Shown here piece by piece: positions 2,766 to 16,730 of a stretch of DNA of 48,572 nucleotides. Below the pieces are notes generated by a model. That model had not been told where the DNA came from. It ran no database searches and saw nothing but the letters and a program-made list of their open reading frames with translations. How positions within the stretch are numbered: position 1 is the stretch's first letter; every line of letters starts with the position of its first letter. The stretch is taken from positions 1 through 48,572 of IMG/VR virus record IMGVR_UViG_3300020171_000042; one strand, 5' to 3'. The DNA is from a virus. The translations under genes and the position numbers were made by a program.

Positions 2766-5700
2766 TTACTCCTTTCCTATTCCACCTAAATCACTCAAAC
2801 TTAAATCCACCAAATTACATTGCCACGGTTCTGCTGTATTCGCCGAAGAACTTAATTTAAACTGATATACATTCATACTTTCAGGAATATCTATTGTGTG
2901 TCTTATCTGTATGGCACTTATGGCGCTTGCCAAAGTCATTTCTTTCCTTAAATCCCAAACATTAGAAAATTGAGTTCTATCTTCTAAATAAATTGTCCCT
3001 GAACTATTTGTCGCAAAAAACATATTTATCTGCTGGCTTTTGAATACTCGTGCAGGCGACTGTTGATATAGAAATGGAGATATATGATGTTCATTTATGG
3101 CTACACCCGCTTCGGTATTTCCAGAGTCCATAACATTTATTCTCCCGTTATAATCACAACCTATCATATAAAGATTATCTGCTGTATCGGAAGCAAGCAC
3201 GCCCGATTGATATGGTCTTGTATTTTCTGGATACCAAGAACCCGCCCTATAATTAAAACAAAGGGAATAAGAAACAACAGAAGAACCGCCATAGGCAAGA
3301 AATAATCTATAAATCTGTGCTTTTTTATCATCTTCTGCCCAGCATTTATTTAAATCCACTGAACTTAAATTGTTAAGATAAAATGGAGTTATTCCATTAT
3401 CCCTTGCTATATGGTCGGAGATTATCTCATCATCTGCCCCAAAGAATATCCTTATTTTTTTAGTCCAGTCAAGACCTATAACTGCCTCGCCTATCCCAGG
3501 CAGATTAACTTTCTTAACAGTTTTAGGCACAAATCCCCAATCTCTAATTTCTACATATTCCCAATCGGGATTGCCGCCGATATAATTTAACCTGAATATT
3601 TTATATTTAGAAGAAATATATAAACTTCTGCCAACAGTAAATCCTACAGTCAATTCGTCATTTCTTCCTGTGGGAAGTTTGAAATTAGACCAAGCGGAAT
3701 TAAACATACTATTCTGGTCAACATAATAAAAACCTGTCTTATTGGCACTTTCATTTAGTAATAGTGCAAAACCCTGATGGCTTGCTGAATATTTACAGGC
3801 AGGAGTGGCGGTAGAGATATTGGCGAAATACTGTGTGGCTGTTCCTGCCCAATACTGTGGCGGGTCATAATTTTCGTTAGTATTGATTATATAATCTTTG
3901 ATAAAGCCGAAATAATTGGTTGTTGCAGTTCTATTTGTCTGAACAACTGCCCAATTTTTACCTATATCACTTGAAGAATAAATTCCTGTTCCCGAAGCGC
4001 AAAGTAATCGTCGTTCTTGAATAATATCAGAATGATATGCTACTGTTGGAGGAGTAAAATTAGCCGTATGTCGAGCAACACTTGAAAATCTCCATTCATC
4101 AGCGAAAGCACAAAGATAGGAATTATTTGTAGTAACTACATTCACCCCTAATTTTAATAGAGAAGCAAAATCAGGGATTATTCCAGCGGTTGTCCCTGAA
4201 ACAAAGATATTTGAGCCAGCCACAAACATATACCAATTATTCATGGTATTTCTAACCAATTCTAAATGATACCAACTTCCCGTAGCGGGACTCCATATCC
4301 CAGATAGATTAACAGTCAAAACCCCTGCTGAATATACCTGAAAATAAAGACCGTTGGATGTATTTGTTCCAGCGGTATTATATTGCAGTAACCAATAATT
4401 AGTGGCGTTGCTTCCTTGTCCGATAAGCGCCTGCGATGTCCCAACAAAATTAAAATTTATGTGATTATCAATAGTCATATTTCCCAAACCCGTATTCCAA
4501 TCAGCATTATCAGGAGCAGTAATAAAGGCATTTTTGTTGATAATCTTATAAATTCCAGAAGTAACATTATCTACATAAAAAGTATTTGCGACAGAGGCAT
4601 CCGTAATGGTAAAAAAAACTCTGTTTATTCCATCCTTACTGTCAGCCACAAAAGAGGAAATATCCCAATTAAAGGCGTGCCAAGAATTAGCAGTAACAAT
4701 GTAAGGGGTAGTTTGCATAGTTACTAAAGTAGCACTTGACTCTTGAAGTGCTAATGCTATGTTCGCCCCCGTTCTCGAAGAATATAAATTGAAAGATACC
4801 GCGTCTTGCCCTCTCAAATCCATAATTGCAGTAGAAGTAAGAGTGCGGGTGAGGGTTTTATTTAGACTATCCGTTATCGCCGCAACTCCTTTTAATGAAT
4901 ATGAACCTTGAGTTTTGATGGTGGCTTCGGACTGAACAAATAACCCCTTAACATAAACCTTAAAATATAAGTCATAAATCCCCGTAGTCCAAGTTGAACC
5001 ACCATTGTGCGAAACAGCAGGAACTCCACCAGCATAACTACTCTCTTTAGTAGATATATTCCAGTAATTATCAGTTGATTGATTATCACACAGAATAACA
5101 ACCCAATAGGTGGTTGAACCTAAAAGGACAAAGGGAGTTGCGAATGTTCCTTTAATTATTGTATTTATTGCAGGGGGAGTAACTACTATTGATGCGTTAG
5201 CATTTGCTAAAGTTCCAGAAGGAACACCAGCATTATCTGTTTCTATTCTCAATGTCCAGTTGCCAGTAGGAGAACCAAATGGAGTTGTATCTTGCCTTAT
5301 CTCTATAGCAGTTGTCAATAATGTTCCAGATAACTGAAAACCTTGTGCTAATCTCCACTCCGCATTAGCTACATCGCCAAGATACTGATAGTCACCTGCA
5401 CCAGATTGTGTTTGCTGCTGGTCAACTATTTCAGTAGCATCCGTTACATACGCCGCCTGTGCAAGGGCGTCGGTGGAATATTCCATATAGTCAAGTTCTG
5501 GACTATTAGCAAATAAACCACTTGCTCCGCCAAACTTGCTTTTTAGGGCACTAACCATTATATCGCCATAGGTAGTAATAGCATAAACTTTGGGGGAACT
5601 ATCGGTAATAGGAATTCCGTCAAAATGTAAAAGAAGTTTTGTATTACTATCATTTCCCCCCAGTCCCAAAACTCCAAAATCATACATTCCATAACCGCCT

Positions 5701-9612: not shown

Positions 9613-9690
9613 TTATGCACCTGCGCTATGATATAGCGAATCAGGTCTTGCACATTCAACACTAAAACGGAAAGTTCCTTTGAAGCGACT
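9613..9690 (-). CDS. Major capsid protein gene, 3' exon (25 codons)
   Basis: Immediately after the intron, the frame that joins in phase with the capsid 5' exon reads SRFKGTFRFSVEC, then ARPDSLYHSAGA and a TAA. It matches the C-terminal 25 residues of the unspliced capsid frame at 19 of 25 positions, with exactly the same length. At the DNA level the two copies share only about 60 percent, and most differences are synonymous. Splicing 10448..11299 to this segment gives a 309-residue protein. The segment has no start codon and makes sense only as an exon or a relic of one. Confidence 0.85.
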   Translation of the reverse strand, partial: SRFKGTFRFSVECARPDSLYHSAGA

Positions 9691-10369
9691 CAGTTATGTT
9701 ATCGTCAAGTTCTTTATCTTGACTTCTTATTGTTTCCAATAAGCTCGGACTATATCTTCGGTTTCCCGTCGGGGTCTCTTGCGAAAGATTATTGTTGGGA
9801 CTCACTTTCGTAGTCTCTACACCTTCCATAGAACTTTTACCCTCTATGGCTTGGCTCGGTATTTTCGTGTTTTCACCGAATTCACCCGATTTATTTTGAA
9901 CACCTCGTCTATTCAATCGTTTGAATACTACAAATAACTCCTCCCGATAAGTAATTTCTTTTTCACTTAAAGGATTATTTGCTCCTCTTCCCCATTGTAA
10001 AGTCCCAAGATAATCAAGCATTATTTTTGCTTGTTGTTTTTTGGTTATCAAATAGGGATATATTGCTTTAAGTAATTTTTTTAATTGGCGTGGAGAAAAA
10101 GATATGTTCCAAGTTTCTTTTCGATTTCCAGTATAACTATAAACATTTCTTTTTCTTACACAACCAAATCCAATCATATTCTTTAAAGCAATAATAGTTT
10201 CTAAATGAGTATTTGTCATATAGGCACAACCGACAAATGTCCATCCTCGTATAGAACTTTTGGATTTCATTTTGTAGTAACTTAAACAACCTTCACCATC
10301 AAAAAACCCTGCAATATAGGCTTTCTGCGTTTCAGTTAAAGACAAAGTGTAAAGGTGACATTGTTTCAT
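9662..10369 (-). CDS. LAGLIDADG homing endonuclease encoded in the group I intron
   Basis: 235 residues with one LAGLIDADG helix motif near the start (AYIAGFFDGEGCL, about residues 17-29), so it probably works as a homodimer. It would cut intron-free capsid alleles and drive copying of the intron. The ATG directly follows the TAA of the unspliced capsid frame (TAAATG). From about residue 155 the frame runs through the catalytic core of the intron, so that part is probably constrained as RNA and is not a protein domain. The last nine codons extend past the 3' splice site into the capsid exon in another frame. Confidence 0.85.
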   Translation of the reverse strand: MKQCHLYTLSLTETQKAYIAGFFDGEGCLSYYKMKSKSSIRGWTFVGCAYMTNTHLETIIALKNMIGFGCVRKRNVYSYTGNRKETWNISFSPRQLKKLLKAIYPYLITKKQQAKIMLDYLGTLQWGRGANNPLSEKEITYREELFVVFKRLNRRGVQNKSGEFGENTKIPSQAIEGKSSMEGVETTKVSPNNNLSQETPTGNRRYSPSLLETIRSQDKELDDNITESLQRNFPF

Positions 10370-10447
10370 TTAGGCTCCACTTGAATGATATAGACTGTCT
10401 GGACGAGCACAATCTATGCTAAATCTAAACGAGCCTTTTGCACGATA
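9691..10447 (-). mobile_element. Group I (subgroup IA-like) intron in the capsid gene
   Basis: All core elements can be read on the minus strand. P1 is exon AGGTGAT (10454-10448) paired with guide GTCACCT (10359-10353), with a U-G pair at the splice site. P3 is TCGGG (9889-9885) with CCCGA (9773-9769). The P4/Q region reads ATACCGAGCCAAGCC. P6a is CCATAGA/TCTATGG. P7 lies between the AGAGACTA element and AAGATATAGTCC (9758-9747). P7.1 is CGAAAG/CTTTCG and P8 is CGG-GAAA-CCG. P9 is CTTATTG-GAAA-CAATAAG, followed by a GTCAAG/CTTGAC hairpin. The 3' splice site is placed after the G at 9691 because that restores the capsid frame. P5 is very short. The P1 loop is 88 bases and encodes an alternative capsid C-terminus. 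Splicing has not been shown. Confidence 0.9.
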
Positions 10448-11299
10448 ATCACCTGTTTCGAAATCTCCGTCCGAAGCGAATGTAATCTTCCGCCTCATAT
10501 ATGCAATTATCCCTGACAATTCATTGCTTGGTTCAGCCATTAAAGTAAAAGCATCAGTGTCAGTATAATACGGAGATACAACTAATTTAAGATTTCTCTC
10601 CTTAATTGTATTTACCGCATTATTTGCTGACTCGGGGTCGTATGCTGATTGCAATAATTCTTTTGCTTTCCAAGCATTCGCTGGATTAACTATGATTTTA
10701 CTCGCTTTCAGAAGCAAGTAACGTCCTGATTCATCTTTAAGTGCTTCAAAGTTGTCTATAGCAGTCTGTAATGCTGTTGCTGACAAGTCCGCTGTTGGAC
10801 TTAACAGGTTTGACCAAATTGAGTCATCAATATATTTATGGCTTCCGCTAAATAATGCTAAAGCATCCGCTACTGTATGATTAGTAGTAGCAGTTCCATT
10901 ATTTAACATATCCCATACTAATATCGCCAATGTTTCATCGGCTGATGCCCCCAATTCGGTTGTTAAAGACCTCATCTCTGTTGGTATATCGGGATACAGA
11001 GAATCTTCAATTAATTCCTCTGTAATCTTTACACCGAGAGAATAAGTCTTGTGAACCCATCTCTTCGTAGGACCTTGTGCAAGGTCATCGTAAGTAATGG
11101 CTTCACCTTCTGGTTTATGGGCAAAAAGCCCTAAACCTGCCGCATAGGCTGCTTCCTCGTATGCTCGCTTTGATGTCTTTGTAGCACCTCCAGCCAGAAT
11201 TGTTTTCCAGTCAGATTGTGCTGACATCTTTTTGTAACCATTAATCATAAAAGCGAACAAACCAGGAACGACAGCCTTATTAAACGTCGCTCTATTCAT
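10370..11299 (-). CDS. Major capsid protein (HK97-fold type), unspliced reading frame
   Basis: 309 residues. Features fit a phage major capsid protein: an N-terminal arm, an EAAYAAGLGLFAHKPEGEAI region, a TYSLGVKITEELIEDSLY segment, an EALKDESGRYLLLKASKIIV strand-turn and a C-terminal CARPDSLYH. The style resembles Mu gpT-like and related HK97-fold proteins. The gene follows the probable decoration gene by 12 bases. The annotated frame reads 75 coding bases and a stop into a group I intron. The spliced alternative is 10448..11299 joined to 9613..9690 and gives a protein of the same length. The capsid role is supported by position and sequence style. Confidence 0.8.
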   Translation of the reverse strand: MNRATFNKAVVPGLFAFMINGYKKMSAQSDWKTILAGGATKTSKRAYEEAAYAAGLGLFAHKPEGEAITYDDLAQGPTKRWVHKTYSLGVKITEELIEDSLYPDIPTEMRSLTTELGASADETLAILVWDMLNNGTATTNHTVADALALFSGSHKYIDDSIWSNLLSPTADLSATALQTAIDNFEALKDESGRYLLLKASKIIVNPANAWKAKELLQSAYDPESANNAVNTIKERNLKLVVSPYYTDTDAFTLMAEPSNELSGIIAYMRRKITFASDGDFETGDYRAKGSFRFSIDCARPDSLYHSSGA

Positions 11300-13372: not shown

Positions 13373-13633
13373 TCAATAGGTAGGGTTCTCGCCTTCTTCG
13401 GCGGTTAGTTGTTTCTTATATTCCTCTAATATGTTTTCCGTATATAATGAACCGTCAATCTCGCCTTGGATAAGTATTGCTTTCTTTTCTGCCTCAAGGT
13501 TACATTGTCGGAGAATATCCGCTTGTTCCCTGTTCTTTTGTTGCCTCCACGCTTGCGAAAGGTTCTTGAAGATTTCCCACCCCTTGTGCTGGAGGATTTC
13601 CTTGATTATTTCCACCTGCTCCTGTTTTTCCAC
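13373..13633 (-). CDS. Small helical protein overlapping the portal 3' end
   Basis: 86 residues from a GTG start at 13633 (preceded by a GGAGCAGG stretch). It has a strongly helical, charged composition with a HKGWEIFKNLSQAWRQQKNR segment. Its first 134 bases are shared with the end of the portal gene in another frame. The portal residues encoded there are low-complexity Gly/Asn/Pro-rich, whereas this frame looks like a normal protein. That suggests this gene is the constrained partner. Similar small helical proteins follow portal genes in other phages. Function unknown. Confidence 0.65.
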   Translation of the reverse strand: MEKQEQVEIIKEILQHKGWEIFKNLSQAWRQQKNREQADILRQCNLEAEKKAILIQGEIDGSLYTENILEEYKKQLTAEEGENPTY

Positions 13634-16600
13634 CTGCTCCTCTCATCCTTTGGGTTATCGCCATCATCTGTTGCATCATCATTTGATGTTCTTGAATATG
13701 TGCTTGAATATATCCCATTACATTCTGTTGCTGTGCAGGATTAAGCATCGCCATTGTCGGACTTGCCGATAATTGATTATGGATATACATATGTTGAATA
13801 TGATTTTCCATTAACTTTGCCCTAACCTCATTAAAACTACCTTGTAATATAAGAGTATTTTCTTCTTCGGGCGTTCGGAAAGTGCTGGCTTCTGGTTCTT
13901 GTCCTAAATGTTCTTCGGGTTCTTCTCCATACGCTTTAAGCAATTTAGCGGTTTCATTATACATTTTTATAGGGTCAGTATTGACAATAGGATTTTGAAG
14001 TAAAGTAGCGTAGATAAAACCCGCCAATTGCCTTTCCACATTTACCGAACCCATAGAAACATCTTCCAATAAATAGGCATCATATTCACCGCTTAATCCT
14101 TCTTCGGTAAGTTCATTGCCTTTAAAGATGGGTTCGCCATCTTCACCCAATACTCTATTTTCTAATCCCATAGGTATATTCTTTTGTATCTGGTCAAAGA
14201 CTAATGTTAATATCTGTGCCGCACCTCGTTTTAATCTTATGGCAGGTATGGCAAATCTTGTATCAGCCGCACTTACTATCGCTTGTGTTCGTGTAGCAGT
14301 TCCAGAACCTCCAACTATTTCCGACTCTTTGCCCATTATATAACTTGAAGCCGCAGTCAATCTTTCAATAAATTCTAATACCCCTCGCATTGCCACAAGC
14401 AATCTTTCAGTCGGAATTTCTATATTAGGAAAGTAAATATTCTGTTGCGGATTAGGAACAGGTATCATTTTGTTGGGAGCAAGAGTGATATTCTGCGGTT
14501 GTAAGTTTCCTGATGGGTCATAAAATCCAGGTCTTAAAACTGATAGAGTATTGGCATCGGTCAATTGATTAAAGATAGCATCTATCTCTTCGGATAAAGG
14601 CATAACCATTTCCAAGAAACCATAACCATCAAGACAATCAGGGTCTTCCAATAAATCATTAACTTTGGTAATGTTAATAGGACGGACTACACGCTTTGAA
14701 ATATCTTTAATTAACACACCACCGAGATAAACCTTGCGTAACGGGTCAACTAAAAGCCGTATATCTTCGGCGATACCATCCGCATCAATATCCATTTTAA
14801 TATAACATTTCAGGACATCTATCGGAGTTACCCTCAATTTGACTTCTTTAATTATTTCAATGTTCTCATTATAGCCCGAAACTGTTTCGTTTATAAAACC
14901 CTCTAATTGTTTTTCAAGATATTGGCTATCATCGTGCAGAGGTTCTCTAATGTTTACTGCTTTGTTATCTCTCTCCATAGTTTCAAGGTCGGAGAATAAC
15001 CAACGCACTTTTATAATTACAGGTTCTTCCTGTATATCTTTTTGCCCTTCCTGAAAATATACATTCTCTCTGGGGATAATTTCGGTGCGGGTATTCTCTT
15101 CAAGTTTTAATTTCTTGTCTTTTTTCTCGGCAGGTTTGCCGTCTTTCTCATAAACCTGAATTCCAAATTCATCAACTATGGGAGTTATAATAAATTCGCC
15201 TGTGTCTTTAACCTTTACATCCCAAGAAACTTCTGTAAATACATCACCAAATCCAATTGCCGACTTAACCCATTTATCATAAAAAGAGTGCATCTTGGCT
15301 TTAACATTAACCCACCAGAACATAAATTTATTGATGCGTTCTGTTTTTTCTCTATCTGTTTTCTCACCAGGCTTCCAACGCACTAAATTCTCATTCCATA
15401 CAGCAGGGAATATACGGGAATGTAACATTTCTATAATAGCCATTGCTATTTTCATACTTCTATTTGAACAATTTCCACACCAAATCGCCTTACCATTTCT
15501 TCTTACAAAAATAGTATGGTAAGGTTCAGTAGTAACACAATATACAAAATCCTTATAATCAATTTCTTTTATTTCTATTCGGTTAGTCTTAATATATTTC
15601 TTAAACCCAATGGTAACTATGTAAAGAAGATTTCTTGTAATTCCTGGATTTGAAGCAATAAAATATTTACCAATATCATCTCTAATACTAATGGTTGCTT
15701 TTAATCCTATCTTCTGCGTTATTTCTTGAATATTATCCGCTAATAATTTTGAGGTAGTTGTATAAGACCACATAGGAACTCTATCTAATCTTATTTTTTT
15801 ATACCCATCACCCTTAGTCAAACTTTCTAATAAAATAGATAATAAATCAGAAGACAAATCCAAATATCTTCGGGGAATATATTTCTCGGTGCATTTACCA
15901 AGAGATTTTAATTCATTTCTTAATTTCTGGGGAATTTGATTACAAATATGTTTTTTATGAGCATATCTTTGAGAATGTTTACAAGAGATAAGATATTGTT
16001 TATTAGTAGAATAAGAATACTTTAATTCCATTCGCTGTAATAGATTTTCTATTTCCAAACATTTTTCTTTATTTGCTTTATCTGATTGACAAATTGATAT
16101 TGTTCCAGATTTATAAGTAAAGCCTTCAGAAACATACCAACCCAAAAATTCCATAAAATCTTCACTATCAAACCCATAAATTTTATCTATATATTTTCCC
16201 TGCCATTTGGAAGTTAACGGAATGTAATTATTATTAGGATTATTTAAAAATTTTTCGGCAGGAATAAAATGATACTTCGTAAATTTCCTTATCAACATAG
16301 AATGATTGTGAGTAACCAATAAATCTATCGCCTTATTTTTAAAACTAATAAGTTTCTCTGCAGAATGAGATTGTAAAGCAGTAACTTTCTGATAAGAAGA
16401 AATAAATGTTTTTGGATTTAACGATAAAACATATTCTCCGACCTTAACATCTTTTATTAACTTCCATCCATTTTTAGTTAAAATTTCAGTATCTTTAGAA
16501 AAACAATTTTTCCAAGGAACAGTCTTTGGTTGCCTTCTCCCATAATACATATCTTTCAGATGTTTCAACTTGCTATCAAATGTAAAAGCAATACTCTGCG

Positions 16601-16730
16601 AGTCCACGCCATAGTCCTTCTTGTTTCTGGCATCCTCAGCGGATTTGAAATAGTCAATAGTAGTCTCCACAAGTAATTTCTCCATATGGGAGTCAATCTG
16701 AATTTGGATAGATTTAATTGGTTCGGGCAT
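13500..16730 (-). CDS. Portal protein (P22-like) with intein
   Basis: 1076 residues before splicing. The ring-forming portal carries DNA into the head. Extein residues 1-75 end in PKTVPWKN and resume at C421 with CSNRSMK. The intein thus splits the conserved PW.NxSN motif found near the N-terminus of P22-type portals. Later parts show the portal helices and loops (FMFWWVNVKAKMHSFYDKW; VRPINITKVNDLLEDPDCL; TAASSYIMGKESEIVGGSGT). The spliced protein would be 731 residues. The C-terminal 45 residues are low-complexity and overlap the next gene. It lies downstream of the terminase genes, as expected. Confidence 0.85.
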   Translation of the reverse strand: MPEPIKSIQIQIDSHMEKLLVETTIDYFKSAEDARNKKDYGVDSQSIAFTFDSKLKHLKDMYYGRRQPKTVPWKNCFSKDTEILTKNGWKLIKDVKVGEYVLSLNPKTFISSYQKVTALQSHSAEKLISFKNKAIDLLVTHNHSMLIRKFTKYHFIPAEKFLNNPNNNYIPLTSKWQGKYIDKIYGFDSEDFMEFLGWYVSEGFTYKSGTISICQSDKANKEKCLEIENLLQRMELKYSYSTNKQYLISCKHSQRYAHKKHICNQIPQKLRNELKSLGKCTEKYIPRRYLDLSSDLLSILLESLTKGDGYKKIRLDRVPMWSYTTTSKLLADNIQEITQKIGLKATISIRDDIGKYFIASNPGITRNLLYIVTIGFKKYIKTNRIEIKEIDYKDFVYCVTTEPYHTIFVRRNGKAIWCGNCSNRSMKIAMAIIEMLHSRIFPAVWNENLVRWKPGEKTDREKTERINKFMFWWVNVKAKMHSFYDKWVKSAIGFGDVFTEVSWDVKVKDTGEFIITPIVDEFGIQVYEKDGKPAEKKDKKLKLEENTRTEIIPRENVYFQEGQKDIQEEPVIIKVRWLFSDLETMERDNKAVNIREPLHDDSQYLEKQLEGFINETVSGYNENIEIIKEVKLRVTPIDVLKCYIKMDIDADGIAEDIRLLVDPLRKVYLGGVLIKDISKRVVRPINITKVNDLLEDPDCLDGYGFLEMVMPLSEEIDAIFNQLTDANTLSVLRPGFYDPSGNLQPQNITLAPNKMIPVPNPQQNIYFPNIEIPTERLLVAMRGVLEFIERLTAASSYIMGKESEIVGGSGTATRTQAIVSAADTRFAIPAIRLKRGAAQILTLVFDQIQKNIPMGLENRVLGEDGEPIFKGNELTEEGLSGEYDAYLLEDVSMGSVNVERQLAGFIYATLLQNPIVNTDPIKMYNETAKLLKAYGEEPEEHLGQEPEASTFRTPEEENTLILQGSFNEVRAKLMENHIQHMYIHNQLSASPTMAMLNPAQQQNVMGYIQAHIQEHQMMMQQMMAITQRMRGAGGKTGAGGNNQGNPPAQGVGNLQEPFASVEATKEQGTSGYSPTM
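15471..16505 (-). other. Intein with LAGLIDADG endonuclease domain in portal
   Basis: Residues 76-420 of the portal frame (345 residues). It starts with Cys76 in CFSKDTEILTKNGW, a classic block A. A VTHNHS block B lies at about 139-144. LAGLIDADG-type helices are at 194-204 (EFLGWYVSEGF) and about 296-309 (LLSILLESLTKGDG). It ends HTIFVRRNGKAIWCGN with Asn420 before Cys421, so the splice residues Cys1, terminal Asn and Cys+1 are all present. The penultimate residue is Gly instead of the usual His, as in some phage inteins. It is a selfish homing element removed after translation. Confidence 0.92.

Follow-up and report, generated by a model that had tools for sequence, protein, structure and literature searches.

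The usual explanation for the tolerance of self-splicing introns is that they remove themselves from the RNA. This raises the question of what to make of a putative group I intron in a phage capsid gene that, when read without splicing, already completes the capsid protein. The window analysed here is the whole stretch of DNA from positions 1-48,572 (48,572 nt) of the virus record IMGVR_UViG_3300020171_000042 in IMG/VR, and the features of the locus are listed in Table 1. The sequence-only reading of this DNA had proposed that the intron carries a copy of the very exon that it displaces, and our analysis examines the architecture of that copy, its ancestry, its recurrence and the explanations that could account for it.

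Table 1. Features of the capsid gene and its putative intron in the window
Feature	Position	Strand	Size or detail	Evidence
Capsid ORF, unspliced	10370-11299	(-)	309 aa	
Capsid exon 1, predicted HK97-fold major capsid protein	10448-11299	(-)	284 codons	Pfam, PHROG, AlphaFold2
P1 5' strand, end of exon 1	10448-10454	(-)	AGGUGAU	7-bp pairing
Group I intron	9691-10447	(-)	757 nt; bounded by exon-final U and intron-final G	core match, P1
In-intron recoded copy of the capsid C-terminus, in P1 loop	10370-10447	(-)	25 codons + TAA	
Internal guide sequence, P1 3' strand	10353-10359	(-)	GUCACCU; 10 nt past the in-intron stop	
LAGLIDADG homing endonuclease ORF	9662-10369	(-)		Pfam LAGLIDADG_1 (PF00961)
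Group I ribozyme core, P2 to P9	9726-9941	(-)		Rfam RF00028; MFE z-score -3.5
Alternative P1 guide	9930-9938	(-)	GUUAUUUGU; more wobble pairs, adjoins P2	predicts identical splice site
Capsid 3' exon, ancestral C-terminus	9613-9690	(-)	25 codons + TAA	relatives' profile

On the minus strand, the capsid frame enters the 757-nt insert after the GAT codon at 10450-10448 and, as had been claimed, continues for 25 codons to a stop at 10370, and the insert ends with G9691. The 78 nt beyond it (9690-9613) are in the same phase as exon 1 and encode 25 residues as well, and excision of 9691-10447 with in silico joining of the flanks again gives a product of 309 aa. The first nucleotide of the copy is also that of the intron, and from there its frame continues that of exon 1. 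At the DNA level, GGTGAT is followed by AGTCGCTTC in the intronless junction and by TATCGTGCA in the exon 1/copy junction. Predicted peptides end in ...SIDCARPDSLYHSSGA for the copy and in ...SVECARPDSLYHSAGA for the 3' exon, and the two C-termini can be told apart by SIDCARPD (unspliced product) and SVECARPD...SAGA (spliced product).

The two ends had been described as sharing 19 positions at about 60 percent DNA identity with mostly synonymous differences, and the measured values bear this out: 19/25 residues are identical but only 43/75 nt, with 13 codons differing synonymously, 6 nonsynonymously and 6 identical. Matches by codon position are 16/25, 20/25 and, at third positions, 7/25, and the 6 identical codons among the 19 shared residues compare with 7.6 expected at silent-site saturation. 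When 32 random nucleotide changes were simulated, 7.1 +/- 1.7 identical residues remained, with a maximum of 13 in 5000 trials against the observed 19, and the runner-up 25-residue match in all six frames of the window reached 10/25. The resemblance between copy and exon is therefore one of proteins and not of DNA, and it is far from chance.

The interrupted gene encodes what is, on the strength of profile matches and a structural model, an HK97-fold major capsid protein. It matches Pfam Phage_capsid_4 (PF25209; 1.1e-13), Mu-like gpT (5.5e-10) and PHROG head proteins, and an AlphaFold2 model built from 48 sequences (pLDDT 80.1; a poor 47.9 from 11 sequences) resembles HK97 (HK97 Head I E 4.7e-11; 1ohg Z 13.5). 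In this model, the intron site falls between strands 264-278 and 285-297, at the predicted tip of the last beta-hairpin. The last long strand (residues 285-297) lies beyond the splice site, so a truncated subunit should be non-functional.

Intron-free relatives were compared, as the sequence-only reading had suggested, in order to see which end is ancestral. These comprise at least 100 loci from two scans, with at least 51 distinct C-termini, complete ends and 31-72% identity to the window protein, and none of the at least 100 loci is interrupted at the window's intron site. A profile of their C-termini scores the 3' exon at 60.3 bits and the in-intron copy at 38.8, and among the matches listed the exon is nearer than the copy in 50 of 51 distinct relatives, with one tie; the exon is thus ancestral and the copy derived. 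That the downstream 25 codons might belong to another gene in relatives had been named among the refuting conditions, but they form the normal capsid end. Among the matches listed, the copy departs from conserved residues, with F replaced by A (F in 47/51) and E by D (E in 50/51), and it may accordingly be the lesser protein. Both window ends also carry residues that are rare among the listed relatives, namely A14 (2/51), D17 (1/51) and S18 (2/51), which argues that the copy derives from the exon of its own lineage or of a near relative. A copy taken from a distant phage lineage is for the same reason not favoured in the window.

That the insert is a group I intron is supported by several hallmarks, which include a catalytic core, a U at the end of exon 1, a G at the end of the intron and a U-G pair in P1. 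The covariance search that had been proposed as a check returned a full-length match to RF00028 (model 1-253 complete) with 49.2 bits and an E-value of 2.8e-11. This is 0.8 bit under the curated cut-off of Rfam (gathering score), and consequently an Rfam scan at default thresholds does not find the window's group I intron and a permissive search was required. P1 comprises 7 bp, and its terminal U-G pair lies exactly where the copy and exon versions diverge, so that the splice point after GAT predicted earlier from this pairing is upheld; shuffled exons equal this pairing with P = 0.0018, and the end of exon 1 outdoes all 203 other U-ending 12-mers of the capsid gene. For P10, no convincing pairing was seen by eye in the window, and AUGAU/AUCAU is possible in one of the further loci described below (L269). 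The sequence-only observation proved right in every detail that was checked, and its reading of the splice point, of the exon copy and of the synonymous recoding is well supported; self-splicing of the window intron is inferred, there being no RNA data.

Within the intron, the endonuclease ORF matches LAGLIDADG_1 at 4.7e-07 (31.1 bits, cut-off 23.1) and contains the motif YIAGFFDGEG. Its ATG abuts the capsid TAA (TAAATG), and a GGAG at 10375-10378, within the last codons of the copy, is by eye its likely ribosome-binding site. The endonuclease frame stays open across the ribozyme core and into the 3' exon (9662-9941, minus strand), with no stop there, against 11 and 7 in the two alternative frames; any frame is open for more than 240 nt in only 5 of 177 surveyed group I cores. 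No close relatives of the endonuclease were found in viral contigs, the DNA pattern of the exon 1/copy junction gave no match, and the window's own element was not found elsewhere in the collections searched.

We then surveyed IMG/VR loci holding the P7 signature or a similar intron 3' end for the same design. It was present at one of about 179 sampled group I core-like sites, and the feature is thus rare. This site (L269, identical to L488, contig IMGVR_UViG_3300027739_000026) lies in a different capsid family, with a PHROG major head protein, an HNH endonuclease and a group I core of 29.8 bits (E 2e-5), and here too the endonuclease frame is open (about 4490-4703, 0 stops versus 6 and 8 in the others) and in frame with the capsid 3' exon. 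Fetching relatives of its capsid yielded two cases at a third insertion site, L492 (IMGVR_UViG_3300002220_002018, core 42.1 bits) and L506 (IMGVR_UViG_3300009506_000314). The group I core of L506 was undetected by Rfam on its own, and this locus was recognised by the homology of its site and endonuclease to those of L492; the endonuclease ORF of both has, by eye, a LAGLIDADG-like motif, LCGFINGDG. The exon-copy architecture is therefore known from four cases, in two capsid families and at three insertion sites. When 524 loci (4.3 Mb) were searched with an end-anchored test, the hits were the four cases, ordinary tandem paralogues and low-scoring chance matches, and no cultured phage with this arrangement was found. 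Several high scorers of the unanchored surveys, which covered up to 232 P7-like sites (L166, L292, L282, L341, L204, L152 and L225), were rejected as group I cores that repeat each other. As a separate observation, L341, L292, L282, L166 and L152 each hold several group I cores within 1-2 kb, some of them repeated at high identity.

The four cases agree in detail. Copy and exon are equal in length in each (78/78 nt in the window, 54/54 in L488/L269, 103/103 in L492 and 100/100 in L506), as are the unspliced and spliced products (309/309, 304/304, 304/304 and 307/307 aa, respectively), and in all four, the last nucleotide of exon 1 is U and that of the intron is G, and the copy begins at the first intron nucleotide and lies within the P1 loop. 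Counted from the in-intron stop, the guide sequence starts after 0 nt (L492), 1 nt (L506) and 10 nt (window). The P1 loop of L492 and L506 is thus taken up by the copy, and their endonuclease is located in another part of the intron; their P1 helices (UGACAU/GUGUCA and GAUAU/GUAUC) show a compensatory C-G to U-A exchange. In L488, where the guide GCCGAAUU pairs with AAUUCGGU immediately ahead of the core, one P1 loop holds both copy and endonuclease. Overall, recurrence at two other sites in three further contigs supports the idea that the copy of the displaced exon is a functional device and not an accident.

Protein-level conservation points the same way for both ends. Under a null of uniform random substitution, residues are kept above expectation in all four copy/exon pairs (P < 1/5000). 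Between L492 and L506, the copies differ by 16 nt changes and keep 23/26 residues (neutral mean 15.1), and the exons differ by 19 nt changes and keep 21/26 (neutral mean 13.3). This silent bias in both comparisons indicates that each end was held as a protein while the two loci diverged, and judged from sequence, copy and exon both look selected as coding. The two copies are more alike in DNA (0.79) than either is to its own exon (0.71 and 0.77), so the copy was probably already part of the intron before the two lineages diverged and has moved with it ever since. Across the four pairs, the longest exact in-register run is 5-11 nt. Nonsynonymous differences fall in 8 of the 12 first three post-splice codons versus 13 of 95 elsewhere (Fisher P 0.0002). 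The claim that the copy alters the endonuclease site is supported by this cluster only indirectly, and cleavage of the intronless site remains an inference.

By analogy, the nearest known parallel is a group of mobile endonuclease ORFs in fungal mitochondria that carry duplicated C-termini, as the sequence-only reading had noted. Examples are known from atp6 in Allomyces and Glomus, atp9, cox2 and nad3 in Glomus, atp6 and cox2 in Phlebia and rps3 in Ophiostoma (PMC3630166, PMC4019555). The two ends of Glomus atp6 share 63.5% nt and 91% aa identity, with the inserted end alone expressed (PMC3630166), and in fungal atp6 and cox2 the native end is unexpressed, which amounts to replacement by the mobile ORF (PMC3630166, PMC4019555). 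As in the window, the gene end is duplicated, the recoding is mostly silent, the endonuclease lies between the copies and the inserted copy is joined in frame to the gene. Hence the window could be an insert of this type, in which a foreign C-terminus brought by a mobile ORF has replaced the gene end, leaving the downstream exon as a remnant and the ribozyme as a mere passenger or inactive. The order of gene, new C-terminus, endonuclease and old C-terminus is that of Glomus atp6, and the start of the endonuclease directly after the capsid stop fits as well. But a fungal-type insert has no catalytic intron and its native end is unused, whereas here the ribozyme spans the insert with its core and P1 intact, the window exon retains the ancestral consensus (its expression being inferred), and the downstream exon is under purifying selection between L492 and L506. 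A further difference from the fungal inserts is the placement of the window copy within the P1 loop. In L492 and L506, moreover, the P1 guide separates the copy from the endonuclease, which sits deeper in the intron, so the two do not move as a single cassette. We consider replacement unlikely on these grounds.

Other readings fare no better against the same data. The copy might provide a second functional isoform, with splicing setting the ratio of two slightly different capsid C-termini, and the maintenance of both ends with differences at a few conserved positions would suit this; yet the differences concentrate next to the splice site and show no relation from one case to the next, and about 100 relatives manage with a single end, which leaves such a role very unlikely. 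The exact placement of the copy in the P1 loop, and a P1 region that folds slightly better than shuffles (z -1.4), could instead mean that it is a co-conversion relic or an element of P1 RNA structure without coding role. This is disfavoured, and we would give it only the slimmest chance, given the silent-site excess in the four pairs and between the orthologous copies and the exact match of length and frame in 4/4 cases.

The reading that we prefer, with a probability of roughly 0.7, is that this is a mobile group I/LAGLIDADG intron whose recoded copy in the P1 loop serves as a fail-safe for an essential, highly expressed capsid gene. Ribosomes in phage-infected cells trail the transcribing polymerase, and they can reach an intron that is still unfolded. 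With splicing, the mRNA would carry exon 1 followed by the ancestral 3' exon; without it, or if a ribosome arrives first, translation would pass from exon 1 into the copy and end at its stop, giving a near-identical C-terminus of the same length and no truncated subunit. A conventional intron would in that event yield a truncated protein, which for a capsid subunit present in hundreds of copies may poison assembly, and a P1 loop that completes the protein would remove this cost. Silent recoding may block recombination with the exon (direct-repeat deletion) and so retain the intron, and the altered first codons may avoid rebuilding the homing target. The architecture, the ancestry of the ends, their conservation as proteins and the recurrence are read from the DNA itself; with no RNA or protein data, splicing, the use and translation of both mRNAs, cleavage and the selective reasons are inferred.

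The same logic has been engineered in HomeR, a home-and-rescue drive in which a homing element sits in an essential gene and a re-coded 3' end restores that gene (PMC7968924). HomeR shares this logic by design, but it is synthetic and Cas9-based and has no ribozyme, and is thus a functional analogue and not a member of the class. More tentatively, and with rather less than even confidence, we suggest that the recurrent phage introns are natural home-and-rescue elements, in which a recoded, cleavage-resistant copy of the remaining codons in the P1 loop permits low-cost invasion of an essential capsid gene even if splicing fails, and ribosome traffic into P1 chooses between spliced mRNA for capsid and unspliced mRNA that makes endonuclease. 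They would be a natural counterpart of engineered recoded-rescue gene drives, and would offer a specific and testable way out of the clash that arises in bacteria when translation is coupled to transcription while a ribozyme has to fold. Beyond being removable, the window intron would itself provide for the event that splicing fails, within a gene whose product each virion requires in hundreds of copies.

Mycobacteriophage LittleE and lactococcal phage Tuc2009 also carry a group I intron in a capsid gene (PMC3706429). That of LittleE, like the window's, lies in the major capsid gene; its HEG is of the LAGLIDADG type and its splicing was demonstrated in RNA (PMC3706429), but unlike in the window no exon copy is reported. 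The Tuc2009 intron lies near the 5' end of its gene and is described without a copy, whereas the window intron lies near the gene end. No phage case of an exon-copy intron was found in the open-access literature, in agreement with the sequence-only reading, which knew of none. Gene callers would give the unspliced capsid as a normal complete gene, and such introns are therefore easily overlooked; a simple search for an ORF end that is repeated in protein, not in DNA, 0.7-0.9 kb downstream finds them.

Two further possible mobile elements were noted in passing. In Pelagibacter phage HTVC120P (L528, 2778-3952), the capsid gene is annotated in two parts, gp29 and gp30, separated by a group I-like DNA match; the annotation has probably missed a capsid intron close to the 5' end. 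In the window, the SU10-type portal ORF (13500-16730, minus strand, 1076 aa) contains an apparent in-frame intein with a LAGLIDADG_3 domain, its limits lying roughly at ...KTVPWKN and CSNRS..., which would make it the second mobile element of this late gene cluster.
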